A stretch of DNA of 64,000 nucleotides from Elusimicrobium minutum (GTDB taxonomy: Bacteria; Elusimicrobiota; Elusimicrobia; Elusimicrobiales; UBA9959), in the NCBI GenBank assembly GCA_020723765.1, contig DYIF01000003.1, positions 62,001 to 126,000 on the forward strand, given 5' to 3'. Within the stretch, counting starts at the first letter, position 1, and each line of letters starts with the position of its first letter. The notes under the pieces were generated by a model that had not been told where the DNA came from, did no database searches, and saw nothing but the letters and a program-made list of their open reading frames with translations. This document shows positions 32,664 through 55,949 of the stretch, piece after piece. The position numbers and the translations under genes were made by a program.

Positions 32664-33371
32664 TCATCGGTTTGATTTAATCTTTATTTTTCTAACCGAA
32701 GGAATATATATGGTCGTTCTATCGTCTATTTCTTTTATTTCGTCTTTGAAAGAAGAAATATTGTGAGATTTTATCCGCTCTTTTTCAAAAACCGTATTTA
32801 TTTTAATCGTATAAAACTTATGATCTGGTTTGTACAATCTTGTTAACGTTTTGATTTTTTTGTTATCAATATTTTTAATAAGATTCGGATTGAATATTAT
32901 TATATCGTTATATGGATTCAACCTGTTTTCTACGGGATAGGTATAAATTACGTAGGTGTTTTCTCCTTTGAGTTTTCTGCATATCAGATCTATAACATAA
33001 TCCAGAGAAGATACGCTCGGTATGGTTTTTATGTTAAATTTTTTTTTCAATATTTCGTATAGCGATTGATTTCTTTTATTGAGATACAAAGGATTGCCGT
33101 GAGTAAGATAAAGTATGGTATCGAACTTTTTAAATAGCCTGTTTATTTTATCGAATATGTAATTCACCGATTTTTCTATATCGGTCGAAAGATGTTTGTT
33201 TATAGAAAAAGTATTTTTGTTTATTTTTTTAAAATACGCAAGGTCGACTTCGTTTAAAGCGTCGGATATCACTATGTCGGCTTTTTTGAATATTTTTAAA
33301 ACTTCGATCGATATGTCCGAGAGGTTCATTCCTATCGAGCCCATATATATCGTTTTTTTGTCTTTAAACAT
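32664..33371 (-). CDS. Tetrapyrrole-methylase-fold SAM-dependent methyltransferase (copy 1)
   Basis: IYMGSIGMNLSDISIEVLKIFKKADIVISDALN and TILYLTHGNPLYLNKR...IPSVSSLDYVIDLI match TP-methylase fold landmarks. Confidence 0.72.
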   Translation of the reverse strand: MFKDKKTIYMGSIGMNLSDISIEVLKIFKKADIVISDALNEVDLAYFKKINKNTFSINKHLSTDIEKSVNYIFDKINRLFKKFDTILYLTHGNPLYLNKRNQSLYEILKKKFNIKTIPSVSSLDYVIDLICRKLKGENTYVIYTYPVENRLNPYNDIIIFNPNLIKNIDNKKIKTLTRLYKPDHKFYTIKINTVFEKERIKSHNISSFKDEIKEIDDRTTIYIPSVRKIKIKSNR

Positions 33372-33387: not shown

Positions 33388-33395
33388 AATTGTTA

Positions 33396-34325
33396 ATGAA
33401 ATTACTTTCCTGCATAACTTCGTTAAACGAGATAATTCCCATTAAAAAAGCCGGAGCCGACGAGGTTTATTTCGCTTATGAAAAAGTATATAATTACGGC
33501 AATTCAAAATCTCTTAAAAACTTATCGGAAGTAAAAAAAGCAGTAAATATTTCTCATAAAGCCGGTATGAAGGCTTTTTTGGCGGCTAACGATATAATGT
33601 TTGATACTCAAAATCATAAAGCGATTAAAGAAATTAAATCCATAGTTTCGATGGGTATCGACGGAATAATAGTTTCGAGCGTTGGGCTTCTTTTAAAACT
33701 TAAAAAATTAAATATAAAAGTTCCTATTCATTTAAGTTCTTTAAATCCTGTTTTTAACATAGAAACCGCGAGAATTTTTTCCAAATTTAACATATCGAGA
33801 ATTATTTTACCAAACCAAATCTCAGCTTACGAATCTAAAGATATAATAAATTTTTGTCGTGAGAAGAAAATAGAGACCGAAGTCTTTTATTTTCGATATT
33901 TCGGTTGTCCATATATAAACGGATATTGTTATCTGCACGGAGACAGATATTTTGATTTGACTTCCGAAGAGGCATGCCTTTGCAAGATAGACGAAAGAAG
34001 AAATAATGTTAATGTTAAGGTTTTAAATTATGGAAATAACAACTCAATAGTTGCAAAAGTAAGGAAAAGAGTGCGAGAGAGATTTTCCAAAGGAGGACCG
34101 CCGAGAATTATGACAGCCGCAGAGTTTTTCGATTTTTATCGCCTTGGAGTTACTCATGTAAAATACGGAACCAGAACCGACGATACCAGAACTAAAATTA
34201 TAAACGTATATAATATCAAAAAAGCTATCGATTATATGATGAATGTTTCATCGATGTGCGATTATGATGAAGCTAAAAAAAGATTTGTAAAATATGCGAT
34301 TGGGAATTCTGGAGTTATTAAATGA
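33396..34325 (+). CDS. U32 family protein, UbiU-like (pair A, first subunit)
   Basis: KKAGADEVYFAYEK..., FRYFGCPYINGYCYLHGDRYF...EEACLCKID; C-term FFDFYRLGVTHVKYGTRTDD. Confidence 0.75.
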   Translation: MKLLSCITSLNEIIPIKKAGADEVYFAYEKVYNYGNSKSLKNLSEVKKAVNISHKAGMKAFLAANDIMFDTQNHKAIKEIKSIVSMGIDGIIVSSVGLLLKLKKLNIKVPIHLSSLNPVFNIETARIFSKFNISRIILPNQISAYESKDIINFCREKKIETEVFYFRYFGCPYINGYCYLHGDRYFDLTSEEACLCKIDERRNNVNVKVLNYGNNNSIVAKVRKRVRERFSKGGPPRIMTAAEFFDFYRLGVTHVKYGTRTDDTRTKIINVYNIKKAIDYMMNVSSMCDYDEAKKRFVKYAIGNSGVIK

Positions 34326-35113
34326 AGCTCAAAGGAATAAAAAACGCCATTAAACTTAAACATAATCATCTTAAATCTTTTTCGTTCGACTTAAAAGATT
34401 ATGAATTTTTGTATACCGGAAGCGAATTTTGTGAAAACCTGCTTGAGGTTTATCTCGACGTCATAGATATTCTAAAAAATTTTGATAATAAAATATGTTT
34501 TTTAACTCCTCCCGTAAGTTATAAAGGAATAGAGTTATGTTTTAAAATTTTCAAGTGGCTTAAGGATAATAAAAAAAACGAAGAAATAGAAATTACCGCA
34601 AACGATTTCGGAACGATAAATGTCGCCAGAGAAGTATTTGGGAAGAAGATAAAGATAAACTTTGGAAGACATATTACAAAGCATTTTTTTTCGACGGATA
34701 AAACTTCTATCAGAGCCAACTCTTTAGATTGTCTTGTTTTTGCAAATAAAATGAATATAGAAAGGTTTGAGATATCGAGTTTCGATACGGTTCCTTCTCA
34801 TAATTTCGATATATTTAAGAAAAATAGAGTGAGGTTCTTTTTTTCCGTTTTTTATCCGTATGTGAATTTGACTATGTCGAGAAATTGTCTTTTGGGGATG
34901 CCAGATAATTCTCCTTCTTCTACGATTAAAAACATTCCCTGCTCAAAGGAGTGCGTTAGCGGGGATTATTGCGTAACAAACAATAAAACAAGAACCGATT
35001 TGATAGCGAGCGAAAATTCTTTGTTTGTAAAGAATACGTCGGATATTTTTTTAAGCTGGAAAGTTTTTAAAAGCATTCGAGCCGACAGGGCGGTTTACTG
35101 CCCTTTTCTTTGA
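34322..35113 (+). CDS. U32 family protein, UbiV-like (pair A, second subunit)
   Basis: FLYTGSEFCENL; VNLTMSRNCLLGM...IPCSKECVSGDYC cysteine arrangement. Confidence 0.7.
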   Translation: MKLKGIKNAIKLKHNHLKSFSFDLKDYEFLYTGSEFCENLLEVYLDVIDILKNFDNKICFLTPPVSYKGIELCFKIFKWLKDNKKNEEIEITANDFGTINVAREVFGKKIKINFGRHITKHFFSTDKTSIRANSLDCLVFANKMNIERFEISSFDTVPSHNFDIFKKNRVRFFFSVFYPYVNLTMSRNCLLGMPDNSPSSTIKNIPCSKECVSGDYCVTNNKTRTDLIASENSLFVKNTSDIFLSWKVFKSIRADRAVYCPFL

Positions 35114-35745
35114 TTAAGAATATGATATACTATTCGCTTGATTTTCCTTTTATTTTTTATTTGGGGATCGTATAAAAAATAAGCGTTTGAATTTAAAAAA
35201 ATATTTTTCGATATGGCTGATTTCATTTTTATATATCGATCCGCGCAAGGGCAGTTGCCTTCCGCTTTAAAAGCGCAGTTTCGAGTGTGGGTAAGATAAG
35301 AAAAAGGAATATGAAGGTTTATTTTAGTCAGATTTTTAATTATGCCGGGCTCTGTCGTGTTATCTATTTCGTAAGCCTCTATGTTTTCGAATATTTTTTT
35401 AAGTTTTCCCCATCCGATAGATTTGGATAGATTTGAAATCAAAACCCTTCCGATATTTATCTTCTTTTTTGTTTTGTTTTTGGTCAAAAAATAAAAAAGC
35501 CCCATATCGTTGACGGTTATTTCTTTTACCGAAGTCGTTTCTAAAATTTTTATTATATTTTTGAAACAATTATCCGTTATTATCGGTGTCAAAAGAACGA
35601 TATTTTTATGTGTTATCTTTTTAATATGTTCGAGTTTCGGTATTTTAAATTGGCAAAACTCTGAGCCTATATATAAAAAATCGTATTTTTTATAATCGAT
35701 ATTATTAAAATCGTTTTCCGGTACTATAACGGCTTTTTCAATCAT
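35095..35745 (-). CDS. U32 family protein, UbiV-like (pair B, second subunit)
   Basis: FLYIGSEFCQFKI; LTHTRNCAFKAEGNCPCADRYIKM. Confidence 0.68.
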   Translation of the reverse strand: MIEKAVIVPENDFNNIDYKKYDFLYIGSEFCQFKIPKLEHIKKITHKNIVLLTPIITDNCFKNIIKILETTSVKEITVNDMGLFYFLTKNKTKKKINIGRVLISNLSKSIGWGKLKKIFENIEAYEIDNTTEPGIIKNLTKINLHIPFSYLTHTRNCAFKAEGNCPCADRYIKMKSAISKNIFLNSNAYFLYDPQIKNKRKIKRIVYHILNQRKGQ

Positions 35746-36568
35746 ATATGTTAAAATATTTTTTCAGACAAGAATAAAAAACCTTTTTCGACGGATTTTT
35801 TTCCATTATGGATATCAGCGTTTTTATTTTTTTTAGTATTTTTATTTTTTCTTCGGTTGTCCCGTCTCTTGCCGTTTTTATATAATTCGCGCCTAACTTG
35901 TAATAATTGTATATCGTTTCAAATCTTTTTTTTGCGGATGGATGGGCCATTTTAATTTTTTGCTTCCCCGACATAAAAACATAACTGCAATTGGTCTTTT
36001 TTCTTATTATTCCGTCGAAATCGTGATACAAGCATGCCCCGTCTATGTTTGAGCAGTAGACGTCTGGAAAATAAAATATTTCGTATTCTATGTCTTTAAT
36101 TTTCTTGATAAAAAACTGTTCTTCGGGTTTAAGGTGCTGAGGTATTACCAATCTCTTTAGTCCGGTCAGTTCTTTATAGAATTTTAAAGAATTTGAATTA
36201 AAAACCAAAGCCGTGGAACTCAGTATTATTTCCGTTTTATTTTTGAAATGTTCTGCTAAATTGATATCCCTTAATATTATGCCGGATAGCCCTTTCTTAA
36301 TAAGTTTTTCTATAATCTCGACCGCCTTTGATGTTTCGGTTTTGTCGTATGTTTCGTTGGCCGCTATATAGATTTTCTTTCTTTGGCTTTGAGCCGTTTT
36401 TATCAATTTTTCCGCTTCGTCCGTATCTTTTATGTTTAAGAATGAATACCATTTTCTATGGTTTTCCACTTCTTTTAAACCGAAATAGAACTCGTCAGAA
36501 ATAGAAGAGAGTATTTCGCATTCTTTTATATTATTTACTCCGGATACGATTTTCATCCTATTTTTCAA
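35738..36568 (-). CDS. U32 family protein, UbiU-like (pair B, first subunit)
   Basis: SSISDEFYFGLKEV..., YFPDVYCSNIDGACLYHDFDGIIRKKTNCSYVF; TIYNYYKLGANYIKTARDG matches pair A C-term. Confidence 0.7.
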   Translation of the reverse strand: MKNRMKIVSGVNNIKECEILSSISDEFYFGLKEVENHRKWYSFLNIKDTDEAEKLIKTAQSQRKKIYIAANETYDKTETSKAVEIIEKLIKKGLSGIILRDINLAEHFKNKTEIILSSTALVFNSNSLKFYKELTGLKRLVIPQHLKPEEQFFIKKIKDIEYEIFYFPDVYCSNIDGACLYHDFDGIIRKKTNCSYVFMSGKQKIKMAHPSAKKRFETIYNYYKLGANYIKTARDGTTEEKIKILKKIKTLISIMEKNPSKKVFYSCLKKYFNIYD

Positions 36569-37577
36569 ACTCCTTCATAGTTTCGAGAAAACTTAGTTTC
36601 GATTTTCTGATATATTCTTTATTCTTATAGTTTTCCCAGAATTGTTTGGCTTTTTTTATAACCGGCTTTATTTCGTCGCTTCCGTATATTTCCAAGTATT
36701 TTTTTTCTATTCCGGGGCAGTATTTATAGTATATGCATTTTTTGCATTGAGGCGTTTTTATCCTGTGTTTATACGAGATTTCAAGCGATTTTTCTTCGGG
36801 TGTTCCAGGATGTATGCATTCGGATTCGTCAAATCCCGAAAGATATAGGTCTAAAACCTTGTTTTCGTATTCTTTTAAAAAGCAAGCGGGAAGATGTTCG
36901 TAGAAAAAAGGGTACCCTCCTTTTTTTAAAAGATTATTCGAGGCTTTTTTCATATATTTTACAGTCTTTGAAATTTTTACTTTGATTTTTTCAGTATTTT
37001 TATCGGCATTTCCCAGATAGTTTAAATATTGTATTACTATAAGTTTTAGTCCCATTTTGTAGTAATATTCTACATAATTTTCTATTTTTGAATAGTTTGT
37101 TTTAGTCACTAAAAATATTGACGACAAAGGTATTTTCAATTTTTGAATATTTTTTAGAGCTTTTATTATTTGCGAATATGATCCTTTTAATCCGGTTAAA
37201 AATTCGAATTCTTCTTTCCTGTAATCGGGGAGATTTAAGGCCAAAAAATCGGCTCCTATTTTTTTAACTTTTAACGCGAATTCGTAATCCGAAAATTTTA
37301 GGCCGTTGGTAAATATGTGTATTTTAAATCCAAGCTTTTTGCACAAAGCCAATACTTTAAAAAAGTCTTTATGAACGGTAGGCTCTCCTCCAAGCAATGT
37401 AATATAATTAAATCCGTTTTTTTTAGCCTTATAAACAGATTTGGATATCGTATTAAAATCTATTTCTTCTACCTTAGTTTTCAGATTGTCTTTGGCGAAA
37501 CAATATACGCAATTTCTGTTGCATCTTTGGGTCATATATATTTCAAATCTTTTAAAATCTATATTTTGATTTGTCAT
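36558..37577 (-). CDS. Radical SAM protein (Cx2Cx5CxG C-terminal subfamily)
   Basis: CNRNCVYCFAK; TLLGGEPTVHKDF; C-term CKKCIYYKYCPGIEKKYLEIYGSDEIKPV. Confidence 0.88.
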   Translation of the reverse strand: MTNQNIDFKRFEIYMTQRCNRNCVYCFAKDNLKTKVEEIDFNTISKSVYKAKKNGFNYITLLGGEPTVHKDFFKVLALCKKLGFKIHIFTNGLKFSDYEFALKVKKIGADFLALNLPDYRKEEFEFLTGLKGSYSQIIKALKNIQKLKIPLSSIFLVTKTNYSKIENYVEYYYKMGLKLIVIQYLNYLGNADKNTEKIKVKISKTVKYMKKASNNLLKKGGYPFFYEHLPACFLKEYENKVLDLYLSGFDESECIHPGTPEEKSLEISYKHRIKTPQCKKCIYYKYCPGIEKKYLEIYGSDEIKPVIKKAKQFWENYKNKEYIRKSKLSFLETMKEFEK

Positions 37578-38239
37578 TTTTTTGCGAAGGGTATAAAAAT
37601 TGTCGCCATATTTTTTATTGTTTTTATTTTGGTTTCAAAATTGTTTGTTTTTGTTTTTATTATTTTCGTGTCTTGGCATGAAAAGTCTTTTATTATTACT
37701 ATATATATCGGGTGGTCGTCGGAATAGCTTTTTTTGAAAGTCAGTAAAAATTGTTTAAGCAGGGAATCGTCTTCTTTTAGGGCTTCGGCTCCGAAAATTA
37801 TCGTATCCGTTTCCGGGTACAATTTTATCTTTTTTTTGTCCTTATTTAAAGATATCACGGTTAGGTCTCTGGGAATTAGGTTTAATTCGTTAAATATGTC
37901 GATTATAATATCGAAGGAAGATACCGCCGGAAGCGTGATTGTTTTTACGTTTTTCAGTTGGTTTTTTATAAGATAGGTTATCGAGTTTAGAAAACAAGGA
38001 TTTCCGTAAGTCAAAAAGGCTATCTTTTCATATTTTTTAAATAGTTTTTTTATTAAAGTAAGTTGTTGTTCTGGATTTAAATCTCTAACCGATTTTATTT
38101 TTATCCTTGCAGAAAGAATTATATCTTTGTCGATGCTCGGGGATATTACGACTTCCGCTTTTTCTAAAACTTCCGAAGTTTCGGCCGTAATATGTTTTAA
38201 GGTTATGCCGTAACCGCATATAAATAGCGTTTTTTTCAT
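37574..38239 (-). CDS. Tetrapyrrole-methylase-fold SAM-dependent methyltransferase (copy 2)
   Basis: FICGYGITLKHITAETSEVLEKAEVVISPS; IAFLTYGNPCFLNSITYLI...TLPAVSSFDIIIDIFNELNLIPRD. Confidence 0.72.
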   Translation of the reverse strand: MKKTLFICGYGITLKHITAETSEVLEKAEVVISPSIDKDIILSARIKIKSVRDLNPEQQLTLIKKLFKKYEKIAFLTYGNPCFLNSITYLIKNQLKNVKTITLPAVSSFDIIIDIFNELNLIPRDLTVISLNKDKKKIKLYPETDTIIFGAEALKEDDSLLKQFLLTFKKSYSDDHPIYIVIIKDFSCQDTKIIKTKTNNFETKIKTIKNMATIFIPFAKK

Positions 38240-39375
38240 AAAAGAGAAAAGTAATATCTTCCTTTTTTAAATTCTATTTCGACTATTTTTTTTACCGATA
38301 GCGATGTCGCCGCGTTTATTACGTTATTGGCGTCCTGACAGCTTTGACAAAGCGGAACTTTTTTAGATAATTTTATTATTTGTTCCACCGGCATTTTTCC
38401 TTTTCCTTTTTTTAATATCTCAATCAAACACTTTTCATCGTCGGTAAAATATATTTTTTTCTTCTCGGACTTTTTATATATCGGTTCAAATCCCTCCCAT
38501 CCGAAAATTTTTACATATTCCTTATCCACTCCGTCGCATTTTGTTTTGAAAACGCATTTTTTGCACACTTCTCCGCGTATTTTGTTCGAATTGGTCTTGT
38601 CGTCTAAATTTATAAGATTCATATGTGGAGATTTTACTACGGTATTAAAAGCTGATATGCCTATCAAGTTTTCCTCATATCCTTTTAGAAAACAAGGCGG
38701 GACATTTAAAAATAATATTTCGTTCGACATGTTGTTTTCTACCATTATCTCCACGGCTCTAATAAAAAATTTTTCACATTTTTTTAAACCGACTCCGATT
38801 TTTTTATGATTATAAAACATATTCCCTACGTATATCGGGTATATTACAACAAAGTTGGTGACTCCCATATCCAGAAGAAATTCTATTATCTCGGGCAGTT
38901 TGTCGTAATTATATTTATTTATGAGTATATTGTTGCCTATTCTTATCTTCAGTTTTTTCATGTTTTCTATAGCTTTTATTACTTTTTGATATGAGTTTTT
39001 TACGCCGGTAAGCATGTCGTGTATTTTGGGGTCGTTAGAAGTCAGGGAAAACTTACAAAAGGTAAGTCCCGCTTCTTTTAATTTTTTTGCTAAACTGTAG
39101 TTGGAAAGAGTAAGTCCGTTTGTTTGTATTCTTATGAAATTAAAACCCGTTTTTTTGGCGAATTTTATTATTTCTACAAGGTCTTCTCTTATCGTCGGCT
39201 CACCTCCGCTTAATCCCAATTTTTTATACCCCGCTTTTTTCGCTTTATAAATTTCTTTGAATATTTCTTCTTTTGATAGATATAAACTTCTATCATAGTC
39301 GCCTTGAGAACAAAAAGAACAATTAAGATTACATTTATAGTTTAAGAGTATTTCGTAACAGTCTCTATTTTCCAT
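38236..39375 (-). CDS. Radical SAM protein (Cx2Cx5CxG C-terminal subfamily) with extra C-terminal extension
   Basis: CNLNCSFCSQG; LSGGEPTIRED; CKKCVFKTKCDGVDKEYVKIFGWEGFEPI. Confidence 0.88.
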   Translation of the reverse strand: MENRDCYEILLNYKCNLNCSFCSQGDYDRSLYLSKEEIFKEIYKAKKAGYKKLGLSGGEPTIREDLVEIIKFAKKTGFNFIRIQTNGLTLSNYSLAKKLKEAGLTFCKFSLTSNDPKIHDMLTGVKNSYQKVIKAIENMKKLKIRIGNNILINKYNYDKLPEIIEFLLDMGVTNFVVIYPIYVGNMFYNHKKIGVGLKKCEKFFIRAVEIMVENNMSNEILFLNVPPCFLKGYEENLIGISAFNTVVKSPHMNLINLDDKTNSNKIRGEVCKKCVFKTKCDGVDKEYVKIFGWEGFEPIYKKSEKKKIYFTDDEKCLIEILKKGKGKMPVEQIIKLSKKVPLCQSCQDANNVINAATSLSVKKIVEIEFKKGRYYFSLL

Positions 39376-42527: not shown

Positions 42528-43380
42528 AAAGTTCGTAATACCTCTTCATAAGTCCTAAACATTTTTTCTTTAGTTTACAGCCTTTGCATTTATAGGTGTA
42601 GATCCTTTCTTCTTTCGGTAAAGTAATCCATGCGTATTTTCTTAAGTTTTTGTTTAAAACGCACAAAGGAAAATGGTACAATCTTAAATTAATCCCCTTT
42701 AAAATATCTTTAATGGAATATATCTTTTGTGCGGATTTTGATAATTTTAAATAAATCTTTCTTTTATTTTTCTCAGAAATACCTTCTATTTCGTAATGTA
42801 TTATCGTTATTCTCCAATTCTTATAGCCCAATAAAAAATCTTTTAAAAATAATATCGTTTTATCGAGCTCCTTTATGTTAAGTTTATGTATCACTATTCT
42901 TATTTCCAATTCTCCTTTAAATTTTAAGGCTATATTTTTTATCCCGTTAACGGTTTGTTCATAACTGTTTTTTATCCCGGTTATTTTTTCGAATGTTTTT
43001 TTGTCGTAACTGTGAAAACTTACGGCCACCGTAAAAGGAGGCTTTGCGACGGATACAAATTTTGTCAAAAATTTTTCATTTGAAAAACTTCTGCCGTTTG
43101 TAAGAAGGGTTATCGGTATTTCGCTCAACTCTTTGCGCAGGTATGTTATAAATCGTAAAAAATCGGGATGTAGCGTCGGTTCTCCCCCGGTTATATTAAT
43201 ATAGTTTTTTTTGTCGAAATTGGAATTATAAACGTTTATTCCTTTTATGTATAGCTTTAATTTTTTTATTTGAGTTTTTATATCGTAGTTTCCCAGCGGA
43301 TTTGAATTGGAATATTCTTTCGGATTTGTGCACATAACGCATTTGTTGTTGCATATATTCCATAAAGATATATCAGGCAT
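42493..43380 (-). CDS. Radical SAM protein, HxsC-like
   Basis: CNNKCVMCTNPKEYSN; NITGGEPTLHPDF; TLLTNGRSFS; GELEIRIVIHKLN; CKGCKLKKKCLGLMKRYYELYGDAELK. Confidence 0.78.
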   Translation of the reverse strand: MPDISLWNICNNKCVMCTNPKEYSNSNPLGNYDIKTQIKKLKLYIKGINVYNSNFDKKNYINITGGEPTLHPDFLRFITYLRKELSEIPITLLTNGRSFSNEKFLTKFVSVAKPPFTVAVSFHSYDKKTFEKITGIKNSYEQTVNGIKNIALKFKGELEIRIVIHKLNIKELDKTILFLKDFLLGYKNWRITIIHYEIEGISEKNKRKIYLKLSKSAQKIYSIKDILKGINLRLYHFPLCVLNKNLRKYAWITLPKEERIYTYKCKGCKLKKKCLGLMKRYYELYGDAELKTIRE

Positions 43381-44770
43381 CGAACCACCTCATAAATAAA
43401 TCCAAGTTTTTTTTGTTTTTTAAAATTTTTATTATTATTTTAAATATTCCTTTTTCTATCCGACACCAGTAAAACGATTGGTTCGATCCGAAGGGAGTTT
43501 TAGATGTTTCGTAATTAAATACGGGACATACTCCGCAGTAAGGCTTAAAAGCGCAATTTACGCATAGGGGCTGATTTTCAAGACAGGATGACAATAAACA
43601 TAATTTTGCTGGCGAAGAATTTACGACATCTTTATATTCGGATTTAAAAACATTTCCAACCTTAAAGGTTTTATCGTTTTGCGCTCCGACCATCCTTCCT
43701 TCGTCGCAGGTATATATATCCCCATCGTAATTATAAGCTAATTGTCCTATAACTGCGCCGCAAGGGTTTCTAAGGTCCAAAAAATTCGGATCTTGTTTTA
43801 ATAATATTTTTCTTAATTTTATAGCGGCGTTTCTTTCCACGAATTTTTTTCCTTTTTTGTTTATTTCTATTATGTAATTCAAAGATTTTTCGTAAAAATT
43901 TAAAAACTCTTCCGATGAGTATCCTATTTTTCCCCATATATTTTTTGCGTAACCTATCGGTGATAGAGGCCTTAAGAATATTCCGCCAAGGCCCAAATTA
44001 AGATATTCGTCTATTATTTCTTTATGATGGTTAAAGGAGTATCTTGTGGTGGTCATTAAAGCCGAAGGCATAAAATCGATATTTCCGTCATTTGTCAAAT
44101 CGATCATTTTTTTAATCATCTTATACCAGTATACGACTTTATCGTATGACGAGGATGGATGATATATTCTATTTTTATCGTGAATTTGTTTGGGTCCGTC
44201 TAACGATGTGCATATGGATATTTTGTTTTCTATTAAAAATTTTAGTTTTTGATTGTCCATTAAAGAAAGGTTTGTCACTAAGCTTATTATTATATTTTTG
44301 CCTATTTTTTTGTTTTTCTTTTTTATGTATTCTATGCCCTTTTTTAGAAGATTCCAATTTAAAAGAGGCTCTCCGCCTTGAAATTCTATTGTTATGTTAG
44401 GATTTGGAGTATCCATTATAAAATCTATGGTTTTTATCAAAGTTTTTTCGTTTATTTCTTTATTGAATTTGGAGTCGGTTGCTCTGCAGTACATGCAAAA
44501 ATGATTGCATTTTAATGTCATTACTATTATATGAAGACTCGGAGAAGAATAGGCGTATTTGTTTATTCCTGAGTAAGATTTAATGAAATTTTTTATGTTT
44601 TCTGGTTTTGTAAAATATTTTTTGCTCCAAAAACATTTGCCTTCTAACTTTTTATCTTTTTTCCCTTTTATTACGCTTTCAAATTGTCTTTTGTTTAACA
44701 ACAAACCTTCACCAGAATCGTTAGATACAAAGTAGGTATTTTTATCTATTTTTTCAAAATAAAAATTCAT
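43373..44770 (-). CDS. Radical SAM/SPASM protein, HxsB-like (copy 1)
   Basis: SLHIIVMTLKCNHFCMYCRAT; IEFQGGEPLLNW; DIYTCDEGRMVG; SSCLENQPLCVNCAFKPYCGVCPVFNYE. Confidence 0.85.
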   Translation of the reverse strand: MNFYFEKIDKNTYFVSNDSGEGLLLNKRQFESVIKGKKDKKLEGKCFWSKKYFTKPENIKNFIKSYSGINKYAYSSPSLHIIVMTLKCNHFCMYCRATDSKFNKEINEKTLIKTIDFIMDTPNPNITIEFQGGEPLLNWNLLKKGIEYIKKKNKKIGKNIIISLVTNLSLMDNQKLKFLIENKISICTSLDGPKQIHDKNRIYHPSSSYDKVVYWYKMIKKMIDLTNDGNIDFMPSALMTTTRYSFNHHKEIIDEYLNLGLGGIFLRPLSPIGYAKNIWGKIGYSSEEFLNFYEKSLNYIIEINKKGKKFVERNAAIKLRKILLKQDPNFLDLRNPCGAVIGQLAYNYDGDIYTCDEGRMVGAQNDKTFKVGNVFKSEYKDVVNSSPAKLCLLSSCLENQPLCVNCAFKPYCGVCPVFNYETSKTPFGSNQSFYWCRIEKGIFKIIIKILKNKKNLDLFMRWFDA

Positions 44771-47981: not shown

Positions 47982-48689
47982 TTATATAAATTTAAATCTT
48001 TTTATCTTCATTATTTTGGAACTTGTGGTATCGTCTTTTTCCGATACTATCTCCCAGCTTTCTATTTTTAATTTCTTTTTGATTATAGGGCTTTTTATTA
48101 CTAATGTTTGAAAATCGTTTGCGTCTATATGATTGCCTTTGGCGTTTTCTCTGTTAATATAATTTATAAAATTTTCATCTACTTCTTTCGCCAACCAATT
48201 TATGTCTATATTTTTTTCAACGGCGGTTATTATAAAATATATACCGGCTTTCAGGCTATCTTTAATCATTTCGGTTGTCGTTTTGCCCTTTACCGCGGAT
48301 TTGTATTTTATATTTAGTTTTTTGAATAACGATAGTATATCTCTTATCAATAAACTATCTTTTTTTTCTCTTATCTCGTAATCCATGCTGGAGTAGAATG
48401 TTATTTTTTTAAATTTGCCTTTTATTTCTTTTCGGTGTATTTCTTTTATCGCATCTATAAAAGGAATTTTGTAGTCTTCGAATTTATATTCTATCATCCT
48501 TATTCCCATAAGCCTGGATTGTTCTTTTAATATTTTTATTTTTAGTGAATCGTTAAATATCTTATGGTGTATTTTGCCGGCGTTAAAAGTAAAAATAAAA
48601 GGAATCGAATATCCTTCTTTTAAAGCTTTGTATATCGAGTAATGAGAGTCTTTGCCCCCGCTATAATTTGAAAAAGCTATTTTTTGCAT
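47982..48689 (-). CDS. PP-loop ATPase, Dph6 / ATP_bind_4-like
   Basis: AFSNYSGGKDSHYSIYKALKEG (SGGKDS); AGIYFIITAVEKNID; GNHIDANDFQTLVIKSPIIKKKL. Confidence 0.78.
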   Translation of the reverse strand: MQKIAFSNYSGGKDSHYSIYKALKEGYSIPFIFTFNAGKIHHKIFNDSLKIKILKEQSRLMGIRMIEYKFEDYKIPFIDAIKEIHRKEIKGKFKKITFYSSMDYEIREKKDSLLIRDILSLFKKLNIKYKSAVKGKTTTEMIKDSLKAGIYFIITAVEKNIDINWLAKEVDENFINYINRENAKGNHIDANDFQTLVIKSPIIKKKLKIESWEIVSEKDDTTSSKIMKIKRFKFI

Positions 48690-50632
48690 ATATATAAATT
48701 AACCTTTCCCATTTTATATGAATTAATTTTATTAAACCTATTTTTTAGCGTTTTAAAGTCTTCGGAGTTTAAAAAATCTATAATTATCATTTCTTTGCTA
48801 TTTTTCGGAATAAATTCCTTAAATTTTAGCCATGAGAATATATTCCATAATATCGTTTTTTGATTTTTAAAATCGATCTCATAAAACTCTTCTATCGAAA
48901 TGGTTTTATGCGAAGGGTCAAACTCTGTTTTGTCGCAAAATTTATCCGAAATATCTATAATTTTATCCGATTCCATCTTAAAATCCATCCATTTTATGTT
49001 TAAGTATTTGTTCATATCTATAAATCGGCTTAATTCTTTTAAGTAGAAATTAATATCGGCTTTTAACGATAATCTTATCTTTATGTTTTTTATCATATCG
49101 AGTATTTCAAATACGGTTTTGTAATAATCGTCTTTTAATATCGTCTTTTTCTTTTTTATCACCTCCAACATAAACTCGACCGTTTTGTTATAAAGCTCAG
49201 ATCTTTTTTGGTAATTTTTATTCATATATTCGAATCTATCTACATTTAAAAGTTCTTTAATCAGATTGTTTAATCTCCGGTTTTGCTTAATGTAACTCGC
49301 AAAAAGTTCGTATGTAGACAATGATCGATTTTTCGATTTTATCGTTAAAGATATTTTATGCAATATATCCGACAAGAATCTGTCTTTCTCCGTAATTTTT
49401 ATTACTGAGCATATTTCATTTAATTTTTTTTCTGTTTTAATTATTTCTTCTTTTTTATATGTGTCGTTTGAAATTATATAATAAGGATATTTATTTGAAA
49501 ATTTTATATTATATTCTTTCGACATTTTTTCAAATCTTGTGTTTTTCCAGACCATAAGTTTGAAAAAATCCAATCTTGCTTGAGTTTGAAGTCCAAATTC
49601 TATCGTTTTTTTAAAGTTTTCGAAATTATCTCCGGGAAGTCCATATATGCATGAAAGGACGAAGGGTTGCGCTATGTTTTGAATCTTATCTTTGTATCTT
49701 AGTATGTTTTCTTTTATTTTATCCATATCGAAAAATCGGTTGGTTTTTATAAGAGCCGACTTTGTAATGGTCTGGATTCCGAAAGCTACTGTTATATTAG
49801 GTTTGGATATCCAATCTACAATATTATCGTTTAGCCTGGTGGCTTCGGTGTTAAAATTAAAAAAAATCTTCTTATTTATTTTTTTTATTTTTTTAAATAT
49901 TTTCTCGGCTCTCTTTATGTCGTGAAATATGTCGCTATCGCAAAATTCTATCGATTTGGCTTCGGGATTTTCTTTTATTATCTCATCCAATTCTTTTAAT
50001 GTTCTTTTTAAGTCGAATTTCCTATATCCCATAAAACTTTTTGATACCGCGCAGTAATTGCATTGATACAAGCATCCTCTCGATCCTTCTATATAAAACT
50101 CGGTGTAATTTTTTAAGTTAAAAACTCTCGATAGATACGGCGAAGGAATCTTATTTATGTCAGAAATCGGCTCCCTTAAAGGATTAAATACCATCTTGCC
50201 ACTTTGAAAATACCCTAAACCTTTTATTTCGCTAAAATTTTTCTTTTTCTCCAATATTCGATTTAAAAGTTCGACAAAGGTTTCTTCTCCTTCTCCGATT
50301 ATTATATAATCTACTGATTTTTTGTAGTCGAGTTTGTCATAAAAACTTGTGGTTATAGCGGGCCCTCCAAGTAGAGTAATAATATTTTCGTATTTCTTTT
50401 TTAATTTAAAGCATAAATCTATGAAAATCTGAGGATTTTCGTAACACGAAAAGCCTATCATATCGGGTTTTATAGGATATAATTTTTCGTCTAAAATATC
50501 TTCGTAATCGTTTAGTTCTATTATGGTTATTCTTATGTTTTTTGAGTTTTTTTCCGCGTATGTTTTAATGTATCCAAGTCCCAGAGGCGGATGTCTTCTT
50601 TTTTTAGCTACAAGGTAAATGTTAAATATCAT
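48677..50632 (-). CDS. B12-binding-domain radical SAM protein, long C-terminal extension
   Basis: LGLGYIKTYAEKNSKNIRITIIEL...IGFSCYENPQIF...TLLGGPAITT, then SRGCLYQCNYCAVSK; ~200 aa unassigned C-term. Confidence 0.87.
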   Translation of the reverse strand: MIFNIYLVAKKRRHPPLGLGYIKTYAEKNSKNIRITIIELNDYEDILDEKLYPIKPDMIGFSCYENPQIFIDLCFKLKKKYENIITLLGGPAITTSFYDKLDYKKSVDYIIIGEGEETFVELLNRILEKKKNFSEIKGLGYFQSGKMVFNPLREPISDINKIPSPYLSRVFNLKNYTEFYIEGSRGCLYQCNYCAVSKSFMGYRKFDLKRTLKELDEIIKENPEAKSIEFCDSDIFHDIKRAEKIFKKIKKINKKIFFNFNTEATRLNDNIVDWISKPNITVAFGIQTITKSALIKTNRFFDMDKIKENILRYKDKIQNIAQPFVLSCIYGLPGDNFENFKKTIEFGLQTQARLDFFKLMVWKNTRFEKMSKEYNIKFSNKYPYYIISNDTYKKEEIIKTEKKLNEICSVIKITEKDRFLSDILHKISLTIKSKNRSLSTYELFASYIKQNRRLNNLIKELLNVDRFEYMNKNYQKRSELYNKTVEFMLEVIKKKKTILKDDYYKTVFEILDMIKNIKIRLSLKADINFYLKELSRFIDMNKYLNIKWMDFKMESDKIIDISDKFCDKTEFDPSHKTISIEEFYEIDFKNQKTILWNIFSWLKFKEFIPKNSKEMIIIDFLNSEDFKTLKNRFNKINSYKMGKVNLYICKK

Positions 50633-52773: not shown

Positions 52774-53127
52774 TTAGCACCAACCTCCGCGCTGATGAGA
52801 CCCGTGCGAGCCGTGTGAGCCATGCGAGCCGTGAGAGCCGTGAGATCCGTGGGAACCGTGAGACCCGTGAGAACCGTGTGATCCGTGAGATGAGTGAGAG
52901 CCGTGTGATCCGTGAGATGAGTGAGAGCCGTGTGAGCTATGAGACACGTGAGAAGTTCCGGTAAAATAGTTTGTATGCACGGCGGCATTTGCATCGGTGG
53001 GCAAAGAAGAGCCTATTATCCCTAAGGCTACGGCGGTTTTTACTATGTCGCTATCTAAAATTTTTCCTTCTTCGCTATTTAAAAATGTTTTAATATTCTT
53101 TTTTATCTTTTTGTTATTCCGTTTCAT
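52774..53127 (-). CDS. hxsA: HxsA-like His-Xaa-Ser repeat RiPP precursor, 117 aa
   Basis: Leader MKRNNKKIKKNIKTFLNSEEGKILDSDIVKTAVALGIIGSSLPTDANAAV, then 18 S-H-x triplets and C-terminus QRGGWC. Confidence 0.9.
   Translation of the reverse strand: MKRNNKKIKKNIKTFLNSEEGKILDSDIVKTAVALGIIGSSLPTDANAAVHTNYFTGTSHVSHSSHGSHSSHGSHGSHSSHGSHGSHGSHGSHGSHGSHGSHGSHGSHGSHQRGGWC
52792..52953 (-). repeat. 9-bp coding tandem repeat encoding (Ser-His-Gly/Ser/Val)n, 18 triplets
   Basis: Read codon by codon: 18 SHx triplets; Ser and Gly codons vary at third positions. Confidence 0.95.
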
Positions 53128-54184: not shown

Positions 54185-54477
54185 TTTCTACCCCTTTTTT
54201 TGCTTTTGGGCTCTTCCCCGAGGGCGGATACCAAAGCTTTGGTTATTATCATTTGAGATACCTTGAAATTTTTCTTCGATATATCTATTCTACATTGCTG
54301 ATTTAGAGCTTCGTTCATCAGTTCTTTGAATATTTTCTCGGAGTTTTCGCAATCTATATTTATTATGTTTTTGTTTTTTAATTTGGTTATAACTACCGAC
54401 TCGCCATCTTTTATTATGTTTTTAGCTATATTCAATGCCTCGTATGAGTATAAATCTTCGAATGTTTCGTATTTCAT
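54181..54477 (-). CDS. Small protein, possibly a second divergent HxsD-like
   Basis: ATG 54477 overlaps stop of upstream gene (ATGA). LYSYEALNIAKN...IFKELMNEALNQQCRIDISKKNFKVSQMIITKALVSAL resembles the HxsD C-terminal pattern. Confidence 0.55.
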   Translation of the reverse strand: MKYETFEDLYSYEALNIAKNIIKDGESVVITKLKNKNIINIDCENSEKIFKELMNEALNQQCRIDISKKNFKVSQMIITKALVSALGEEPKSKKRGRK

Positions 54478-55949
54478 ACCGTTATCTCCTTTTTGTCTTC
54501 TACCCACAAATTGAATATTTCCATATTTTTTTTGTCTTCCATTAACTCGAATATTATGTCGAAGATGCCCATAAATATTTTGCATCTTTCCGAAGATATG
54601 TTGTTGCCCCATATGTTGTTTTGCGCTTCATAATTTATTACCGGACAGACTCCGCAGTATGGTCTGTATGCGCATCTTGAACATGTAAATTGGTTTTCGA
54701 GGTTGGATGTTATCGCGCAGGTTTTTGTGGTTAAGGAATTTATAATATTTTTATATGAATCATTTACCGTTCCTATTTTGAATATATCGTCACCTTCCCA
54801 TCCGACCATCCTTCCTTCGTCGCAGGTATATATGTCTCCGTTGTGGTTATATGCCACCTGTCCTATCCCCGCTCCGCAGGGGCATCTAAGGTCTACAAAA
54901 CCGCTGTCTTTAGCGTTTAGTATTTTGTTTAAAAGCATTATCGCCGTTTTTTCTTTTATGTCTATTCCTTTTTTGTTTAAGTTTAATATGTAATTTAAGG
55001 AATCTTTATAGAATTTTAAAAAAGATTTGGAATCGTATCCTATTTTGTCCCACATCTTTTTAGCAAAACCTATGGGCGAAAGAGGCCTTAGGAAAATCGT
55101 ATTTAAGTCGTTTTTTACAAATTCGTCTACTATCTCTTTGTGATATTTTAAAGAATCGCTCGATATGGTAGTTAGGGCCGAAGGTTTAAATATCCTGTAT
55201 GAGAGATTTGTTTGTTTGTCATGCATCGAGTTAAAATATTTAAGCCATTTTATGGTTTCTCTATAGGAGTTTGCCTGTGTATATATTCTATTTTTATTGT
55301 GTAATTTTTCGGGTCCGTCAAGCGAGGTACATATGGAAACTTCGTTTTCCATTAAAAAATTTGCTTTCTTTTCGTCCATCAGAGAAAAGTTAGTGACTAT
55401 TGATATGTTAATTTTTTTATCGCTATTTTTTTCTTTTTCTCTTATGTATCGTATCGTTTTGGATACGGTTTCCCAGTTATAAAGAGGTTCTCCACCCTGG
55501 AATTCGAAAGTCAATACCGGGGCTGTAGAATAAAAACCTATATCCACCGATTTTTTTGCTATGTTTATCGGCATATCTGTTTTGTTGTTAGATATTCCGA
55601 CGGCCTGACTCTGACAATAAACGCATTTATGATTGCACCTTAGAGTGGTTACGAGTATATGAAGAGACGGTCCCCAGAAAAGATATGAGTTTGAATTTTT
55701 CCATCTTGAAAAAAGGTCGTCGAAATCCATCTGTGTTTTAATAAAACCTTTGGAAATAAGTTCTTCTTTTAATTTTTTTGAGGCTTTGTTTTTATATACT
55801 AAATCGTTAAATTCTTTCTGGTTTATTGTCAAATAGCGGCCGAAATCGTTTGTTATTATAAATTTGTTTTTTATTTTTCTCCATCTTATGTTGATAAGCT
55901 CCAAATTATTTTTTCCCATATTTTTCTTCCCAGGTTTTTTTGACATCAT
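54474..55949 (-). CDS. hxsB: Radical SAM/SPASM protein, HxsB-like (copy 3)
   Basis: SLHILVTTLRCNHKCVYCQSQAVG; FEFQGGEPLYNW; DIYTCDEGRMVG; SNLENQFTCSRCAYRPYCGVCPVINYEAQNNIWGNNISSERCKIFMGIFDIIFEL. Confidence 0.87.
   Translation of the reverse strand: MMSKKPGKKNMGKNNLELINIRWRKIKNKFIITNDFGRYLTINQKEFNDLVYKNKASKKLKEELISKGFIKTQMDFDDLFSRWKNSNSYLFWGPSLHILVTTLRCNHKCVYCQSQAVGISNNKTDMPINIAKKSVDIGFYSTAPVLTFEFQGGEPLYNWETVSKTIRYIREKEKNSDKKINISIVTNFSLMDEKKANFLMENEVSICTSLDGPEKLHNKNRIYTQANSYRETIKWLKYFNSMHDKQTNLSYRIFKPSALTTISSDSLKYHKEIVDEFVKNDLNTIFLRPLSPIGFAKKMWDKIGYDSKSFLKFYKDSLNYILNLNKKGIDIKEKTAIMLLNKILNAKDSGFVDLRCPCGAGIGQVAYNHNGDIYTCDEGRMVGWEGDDIFKIGTVNDSYKNIINSLTTKTCAITSNLENQFTCSRCAYRPYCGVCPVINYEAQNNIWGNNISSERCKIFMGIFDIIFELMEDKKNMEIFNLWVEDKKEITV

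Follow-up and report, generated by a model that had tools for sequence, protein, structure and literature searches.

The locus described here raises the question of what a stand-alone methyltransferase of the TP-methylase fold does in a bacterium without tetrapyrrole synthesis. The window, meaning the whole stretch of DNA that was analysed, comprises 64,000 nucleotides of an Elusimicrobium minutum contig. A preliminary description, made from the letters of the window alone, had placed a TP-methylase-fold reading frame at 32664-33371, numbered it as the first copy, noted U32 genes beside it and likened it to split-borosin N-methyltransferases acting on a peptide. The reading frame is present, contains all three motifs quoted for it, and lies on the minus strand, which had been left unspecified. 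Its product is referred to as TPM1.

TPM1 matches the Pfam TP_methylase model (PF00590) at E = 9e-6 and 26.2 bits, just under the curated cut-off of 27.8, and its paralogue TPM2 (37574-38239) matches at E = 1.2e-9, above the cut-off. The two proteins share 29% identity across their whole length (E = 5e-19). The genome holds three copies, not two; the third (G000:C6:179090-179761) is isolated on another contig between FTCD and efflux genes. Together with one RsmI, encoded on contig C32, the three TPM-family proteins are the four PF00590 members of the genome. At E ≤ 0.001, 35 of the 295 genomes of the phylum Elusimicrobiota contain a homologue, so TPM1 is not a chance reading frame. TPM1 alone as a query against genome contigs confirmed no relatives, and a search of the contigs with the family alignment returned matches only in Elusimicrobiota and unnamed bacteria, the named relatives being Elusimicrobiota metagenome-assembled genomes. 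Neither TPM1 nor TPM2 returned useful matches in single-sequence searches of the PDB, and promoter and terminator scans around TPM1 found nothing above chance. Residues G14, T90, G92, P94 and S121 are invariant in the family, as would be expected of a retained cofactor pocket, and the family loop lacks GxGPGDP.

The genes that bear on the function of TPM1 are the following.

32664-33371, minus strand: TPM1, predicted stand-alone TP-methylase-fold methyltransferase, 235 aa
33390-34325, plus strand: U32A, UbiU-like, divergent neighbour of TPM1, Cys173/180/198 conserved
34322-35113, plus strand: U32B, UbiV-like by its Cys pattern (Cys37/189/207/211), no Pfam or NCBIfam match above cut-off
35095-35745, minus strand: U32B2, second UbiV-like partner
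35738-36568, minus strand: U32A2, second UbiU-like protein
36558-37577, minus strand: radical SAM protein, HxsC-related, 4-bp overlap with TPM2
37574-38239, minus strand: TPM2, paralogue of TPM1 within the Hxs operon, 221 aa, 4-bp overlaps on both sides
38236-39375, minus strand: radical SAM protein, 4-bp overlap with TPM2
43373-44770, minus strand: HxsB radical SAM/SPASM maturase (TIGR03978, 480 bits)
47982-48689, minus strand: DPH6-like ATP-pyrophosphatase (TIGR03679 at 61.6 bits, far under cut-off; PF01902 above cut-off)
48677-50632, minus strand: B12-binding radical SAM protein
52774-53127, minus strand: HxsA4-type His-Xaa-Ser repeat precursor, candidate substrate (NF038313, 86.5 bits, cut-off 55)
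54474-55949, minus strand: second HxsB radical SAM/SPASM maturase (TIGR03978, 485 bits)

An Hxs cluster occupies the minus strand from about 56.3 to 35.1 kb of the window and comprises the HxsA4-type precursor, two HxsB proteins, HxsD-like proteins, many radical SAM proteins of the HxsB/HxsC type, a B12 radical SAM protein and the DPH6-like ATP-PPase. Both HxsB proteins exceed the curated cut-off and share one cluster with a His-Xaa-Ser precursor, the combination by which an Hxs system is recognised. Just outside the window, the same genome (L121, L122; G000:C20:126001-165800) encodes another HxsB and two additional U32 pairs, along with many radical SAM proteins of the B12 and other types, which brings the length of the modification region to more than 100 kb. 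To our knowledge, the named Hxs components, HxsA to HxsD, include no TP-methylase, U32 pair or DPH6-like enzyme. A full-text literature search found no description of this set of enzymes together with Hxs, nor any description of the chemistry of Hxs systems.

The U32 genes noted in the preliminary description do adjoin TPM1. U32A starts 18 bp from it and is divergent, and a YgeY gene lies 40 bp away on the other side. TPM1 is transcribed towards the YgeY and PPIase genes and, set between these and the U32A-U32B pair, it flanks the Hxs operon rather than forming part of it. In the UbiU-like proteins the cysteine spacing is CX6CX17C and in the UbiV-like proteins CXnCX17CX3C, both kept in nearly all homologues, compared with CX6CX16C... 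in UbiU and CXnCX12CX3C in UbiV (PMC6747719). The two pairs, which span 33390-36568 in and beside the Hxs cluster, are candidate oxygen-independent peptide hydroxylases. Genome G176 has two U32 pairs inside its Hxs cluster, and a different contig carries a third.

Across the phylum, HxsB was found in at least 76 of the 295 genomes and the TPM family in 40, every one of which (40/40) also carries HxsB. Among the HxsB matches listed, one is found within 20 kb of 8 of the 39 core TPM genes, where 0.83 would be expected from random placement. This is about a tenfold excess, with P ~ 1e-6 that is indicative only, as it refers to the HxsB matches listed and ignores relatedness between genomes, most HxsB-carrying genomes belonging to one family. 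TPM2 and the members from genus g8 are translationally coupled by 4-bp overlaps within Hxs operons. In g8 the TPM gene is the last in a run of overlapping genes arranged as in the window: HxsC4b, HxsB2, HxsC, the membrane-like gene found at 41.3 kb of the window, HxsC4a, a pair of radical SAM genes, another radical SAM gene, a SufS-type desulfurase and TPM. In genome G222 the TPM gene has HxsB on one side and the adjoining cluster gene on the other. The link between TPM and Hxs is real but not exclusive; the other 31 of the 39 core members have no HxsB within 20 kb among the matches listed.

Several further features accompany these loci. SufS-type cysteine desulfurase genes occur in Hxs clusters at L037:8379-9602, L038:8098-9408 and L065:4001-5449, and in genus g8 the desulfurase gene overlaps TPM by 4 bp. 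In genome G113 (L056:5597-9528) the TPM gene is followed by a fusion of NifH with nitrogenase component 1 and by a second nitrogenase-like gene, with Hxs genes directly downstream.

The reading that we tentatively prefer, at somewhat below an even chance, is that TPM1 belongs to an uncharacterised borosin-related clade of SAM-dependent methyltransferases and most likely tailors a His-Xaa-Ser repeat peptide under anaerobic conditions. In the proposed sequence of events, radical SAM enzymes of the HxsB/HxsC type and the UbiU/UbiV-like U32 pairs would first modify an HxsA-type peptide, which TPM1 and TPM2 would go on to methylate with SAM as the methyl donor. The acceptor may be a nitrogen of the backbone or of an imidazole, a hydroxyl that a U32 pair had introduced, or another group that radical SAM or U32 enzymes had placed on the Hxs peptide. 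TPM1 may N-methylate a peptide, as suggested in the preliminary description. Of this reading, the fold, the clade, the association in the genome and the lack of tetrapyrrole synthesis are observed, and the catalysis, the peptide as substrate, the methylated atom and the sequence of steps are inferred. The following observations stand against this reading: TPM1 lies outside the Hxs operon, with a plus-strand U32 pair between; most core members, as counted above, are remote from HxsB, and many of them occupy type IV pilus or O-antigen-ligase loci; and the syntenic main Hxs cluster of G176 has no TPM. A more specific version, in which a borosin-fold enzyme with a different active site would act with the U32 hydroxylases and radical SAM proteins to yield a hydroxylated and methylated His-Xaa-Ser peptide anaerobically, can be entertained but is rather unlikely.

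The same distribution lends itself to another explanation, that the enzyme has as its substrate a small metabolite or a component of the envelope or pilus, its proximity to Hxs being incidental. In most members of genus g4, and for other orthologues, TPM follows genes for PilM/N/O/P-like proteins, a secretin, two Wzy_C O-antigen-ligase-like proteins and a PLD protein, TPM1 itself is 40 bp upstream of YgeY, and the third copy, flanked by FTCD and efflux genes, is on its own. Nevertheless, the 4-bp overlaps that tie TPM2 and the g8 members into Hxs operons, the co-location excess and the presence of HxsB in every TPM-carrying genome make such a role outside peptide maturation unlikely. At five of the g4 loci (L042, L043, L045, L052 and L062), a protein of about 470 aa of no known type is also encoded ahead of TPM.

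The kinship of the TPM family was addressed by profiles, structural models and phylogeny. NCBIfam models gave only sub-threshold matches, spread over CbiL, YabN, CobF, CbiE and Dph5; the best for TPM1 was YabN at 27 bits (E = 2e-6), against a cut-off of 525 bits. A core-family profile searched against PDB sequences placed diphthine synthase first at ~1e-11, over the N-terminal half only. In other Elusimicrobiota, of family f7 (L102, L103, L105, L107, L111 and L113), tandem TP-methylase paralogues occur that are apparently fused to TPR-rich N-terminal regions and carry RGHP-type motifs nearer those of borosins. The f7 paralogues bridge the TPM family to characterised enzymes: L118, used alone, matched OphMA at 1.5e-11, and its matches to RsmI and tetrapyrrole enzymes were no better than 1e-3. 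A combined family-wide profile reached dbOphMA at 6e-21 and SonM at 1e-15, both over the full length, and Dph5 at 6e-13 over the N-terminal half only. The core-only profile scored dbOphMA at 48 bits over the full length, CbiL at no more than 31, CobA at no more than 25 and four of five RsmI proteins at 14-18 bits, the organism's own RsmI reaching 42.

The AlphaFold model of TPM1 (pLDDT 84.7, pTM 0.71) retrieved borosin methyltransferases as all of its best 50 PDB matches, SonM (7ltc) being the best (E = 7e-15, TM 0.69). For TPM2, borosins do not rank first: precorrin-4 C11-methyltransferase leads at 2.5e-11, followed by borosins at 1e-10. Fold alone therefore discriminates weakly, and the structural argument carries less weight. 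A maximum-likelihood tree with RsmI, CobA, CbiL and dbOphMA, from which Dph5 (similar in the N-terminal half only) and YabN (matching in its MazG half only) were left out, separated the core family, the f7 paralogues and dbOphMA from RsmI, CobA and CbiL with support 91/89, and united all three copies of this genome with the members from G176 and g8 in one subclade (100/97). In AU tests, grouping with RsmI was rejected (p = 0.038), whereas grouping with CobA/CbiL (p = 0.148), with CbiL alone (p = 0.066) and of the core with the borosin alone (p = 0.062) was not rejected; the best tree places the TPM family apart from CobA/CbiL. The clear placement in a tetrapyrrole or RsmI clade that would have spoken against a borosin relationship did not occur. 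Judged from these sequence comparisons, the TPM family is a clade of its own whose nearest characterised neighbours are the borosin methyltransferases.

The preliminary description went further in likening TPM1 to the split borosins, in which case it would use the OphMA/SonM mechanism for iterative backbone N-methylation of a precursor that is a separate molecule. Borosin methyltransferases are indeed its closest characterised relatives by profile (E = 6e-21) and by fold, the match being weaker for TPM2, and TPM1 is a stand-alone protein in a RiPP neighbourhood. Bacterial split borosins, however, are described as retaining every conserved OphMA residue that holds the peptide or forms the oxyanion hole (PMC8429565), and in TPM1 the residues aligned with OphMA Y63/Y66/R72/Y76/Y98 are F/N/D/V/H. 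TPM2 has I, V, a gap and a gap at the first four and Y at Y98. Among core members, positions 72 and 76 are gapped in 16 of 19 and 15 of 19, and the Y98 position is Tyr in 14 of 19. Within the Hxs-linked subclade the latter varies between H, R, N, C and Y, which may reflect altered substrate handling. The alignment was made to dbOphMA, not SonM, whose equivalents are Y58, R67, Y71 and Y93 (Y98 being that of the YGHP motif); it is uncertain around these sites, yet Tyr is nearly absent within 4 columns of each. The OphMA mutants R72A, R72K, Y76F, Y98A and Y98F gave no detectable methylation after purification (PMC6108569). Moreover, TPM1 has neither a fused core peptide nor an adjoining precursor: its flanking gaps of 40 bp and 18 bp hold no precursor ORF, and the sole Hxs precursor found lies at a distance of about 19 kb. 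With catalytic residues missing and no adjoining precursor gene, TPM1 was not filed as a borosin enzyme. Kinship with the borosin fold is supported, through the profile, the L118 intermediate and the TPM1 model; identity as a split-borosin N-methyltransferase is not, and such a mechanism must be considered quite improbable. TPM1 is related to the borosin alpha-N-methyltransferases but probably lies outside them, with a different chemistry.

By analogy with Dph5 and Dph6, a diphthamide-like step might be imagined in which a histidine of HxsA, once modified by a radical SAM enzyme, would be methylated by TPM and amidated by the DPH6-like ATP-PPase. The precursor is rich in histidine, the DPH6-like gene is conserved in the Hxs clusters of G176, G211 and G215 and near that of G113, and the core profile finds Dph5 at the E-value given above. 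Yet the genome has no Dph2, the Dph5 match stops at the N-terminal half and the G176 cluster has the DPH6-like gene without a TPM, all of which leave this proposal very doubtful. Family searches, positive for their controls in the expected reference genomes, found no match to HemB, HemC, CobA, CbiL or Dph2 in the 98% complete genome; tetrapyrrole synthesis and a true diphthamide pathway are thereby excluded, and the earlier remark that no cobalamin or siroheme genes lie near TPM1 holds for its surroundings as well. Methylation of an imported corrinoid or haem-like cofactor is extremely improbable despite the shared fold family, the sub-threshold matches to the CbiL and CbiE models, the precorrin-4 C11-methyltransferase heading the PDB matches of TPM2 and the unrejected CobA/CbiL grouping, because the biosynthetic enzymes are absent, the GxGPGDP loop is missing and the family lies elsewhere in the best tree.

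The best reading is accordingly of a distinct borosin-related clade of peptide-tailoring methyltransferases that was recruited to Hxs clusters. If TPM acts on the Hxs peptide, a non-radical methylation would be added to the Hxs pathway, the borosin fold would be seen to be adapted without its known catalytic residues, and the reaction could be assayed simply, by a mass shift of +14 Da. The adjacent UbiU/UbiV-like pairs would in turn extend oxygen-independent hydroxylation to peptides.

Among known systems, the YabN methyltransferase domain is the best NCBIfam match of TPM1, but YabN carries a fused MazG domain that TPM1 lacks. RsmI is set apart by its separate clade, the AU test and the distinct RsmI on C32. 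CobA, CbiE, CbiF and CbiL belong to the same fold family, and precorrin-4 methyltransferase is the best fold match of TPM2; they differ in pathway context, loop and position in the tree. Dph5 shares the TP-methylase fold and a similar N-terminal half, and a DPH6-like gene is present in this cluster as well; at profile level there is no C-terminal similarity, which together with the absence of Dph2 speaks against a Dph5 identity. The borosin methyltransferases (OphMA, dbOphMA, MroM and the split SonM) share with TPM the fold, a full-length profile match, a loop without GxGPGDP, the YG(H/N)P and VS motifs and a C-terminal (T/S)xYIP, and SonM, like TPM1, is encoded apart from its substrate. They differ in the catalytic Tyr and Arg and the adjacent precursor, absent from TPM1, and in the separate clade and genomic company of TPM, namely Hxs radical SAM or pilus genes. 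The Hxs systems (HxsA-D) are matched by the neighbouring cluster, which passes the curated cut-offs for both HxsB and HxsA4.
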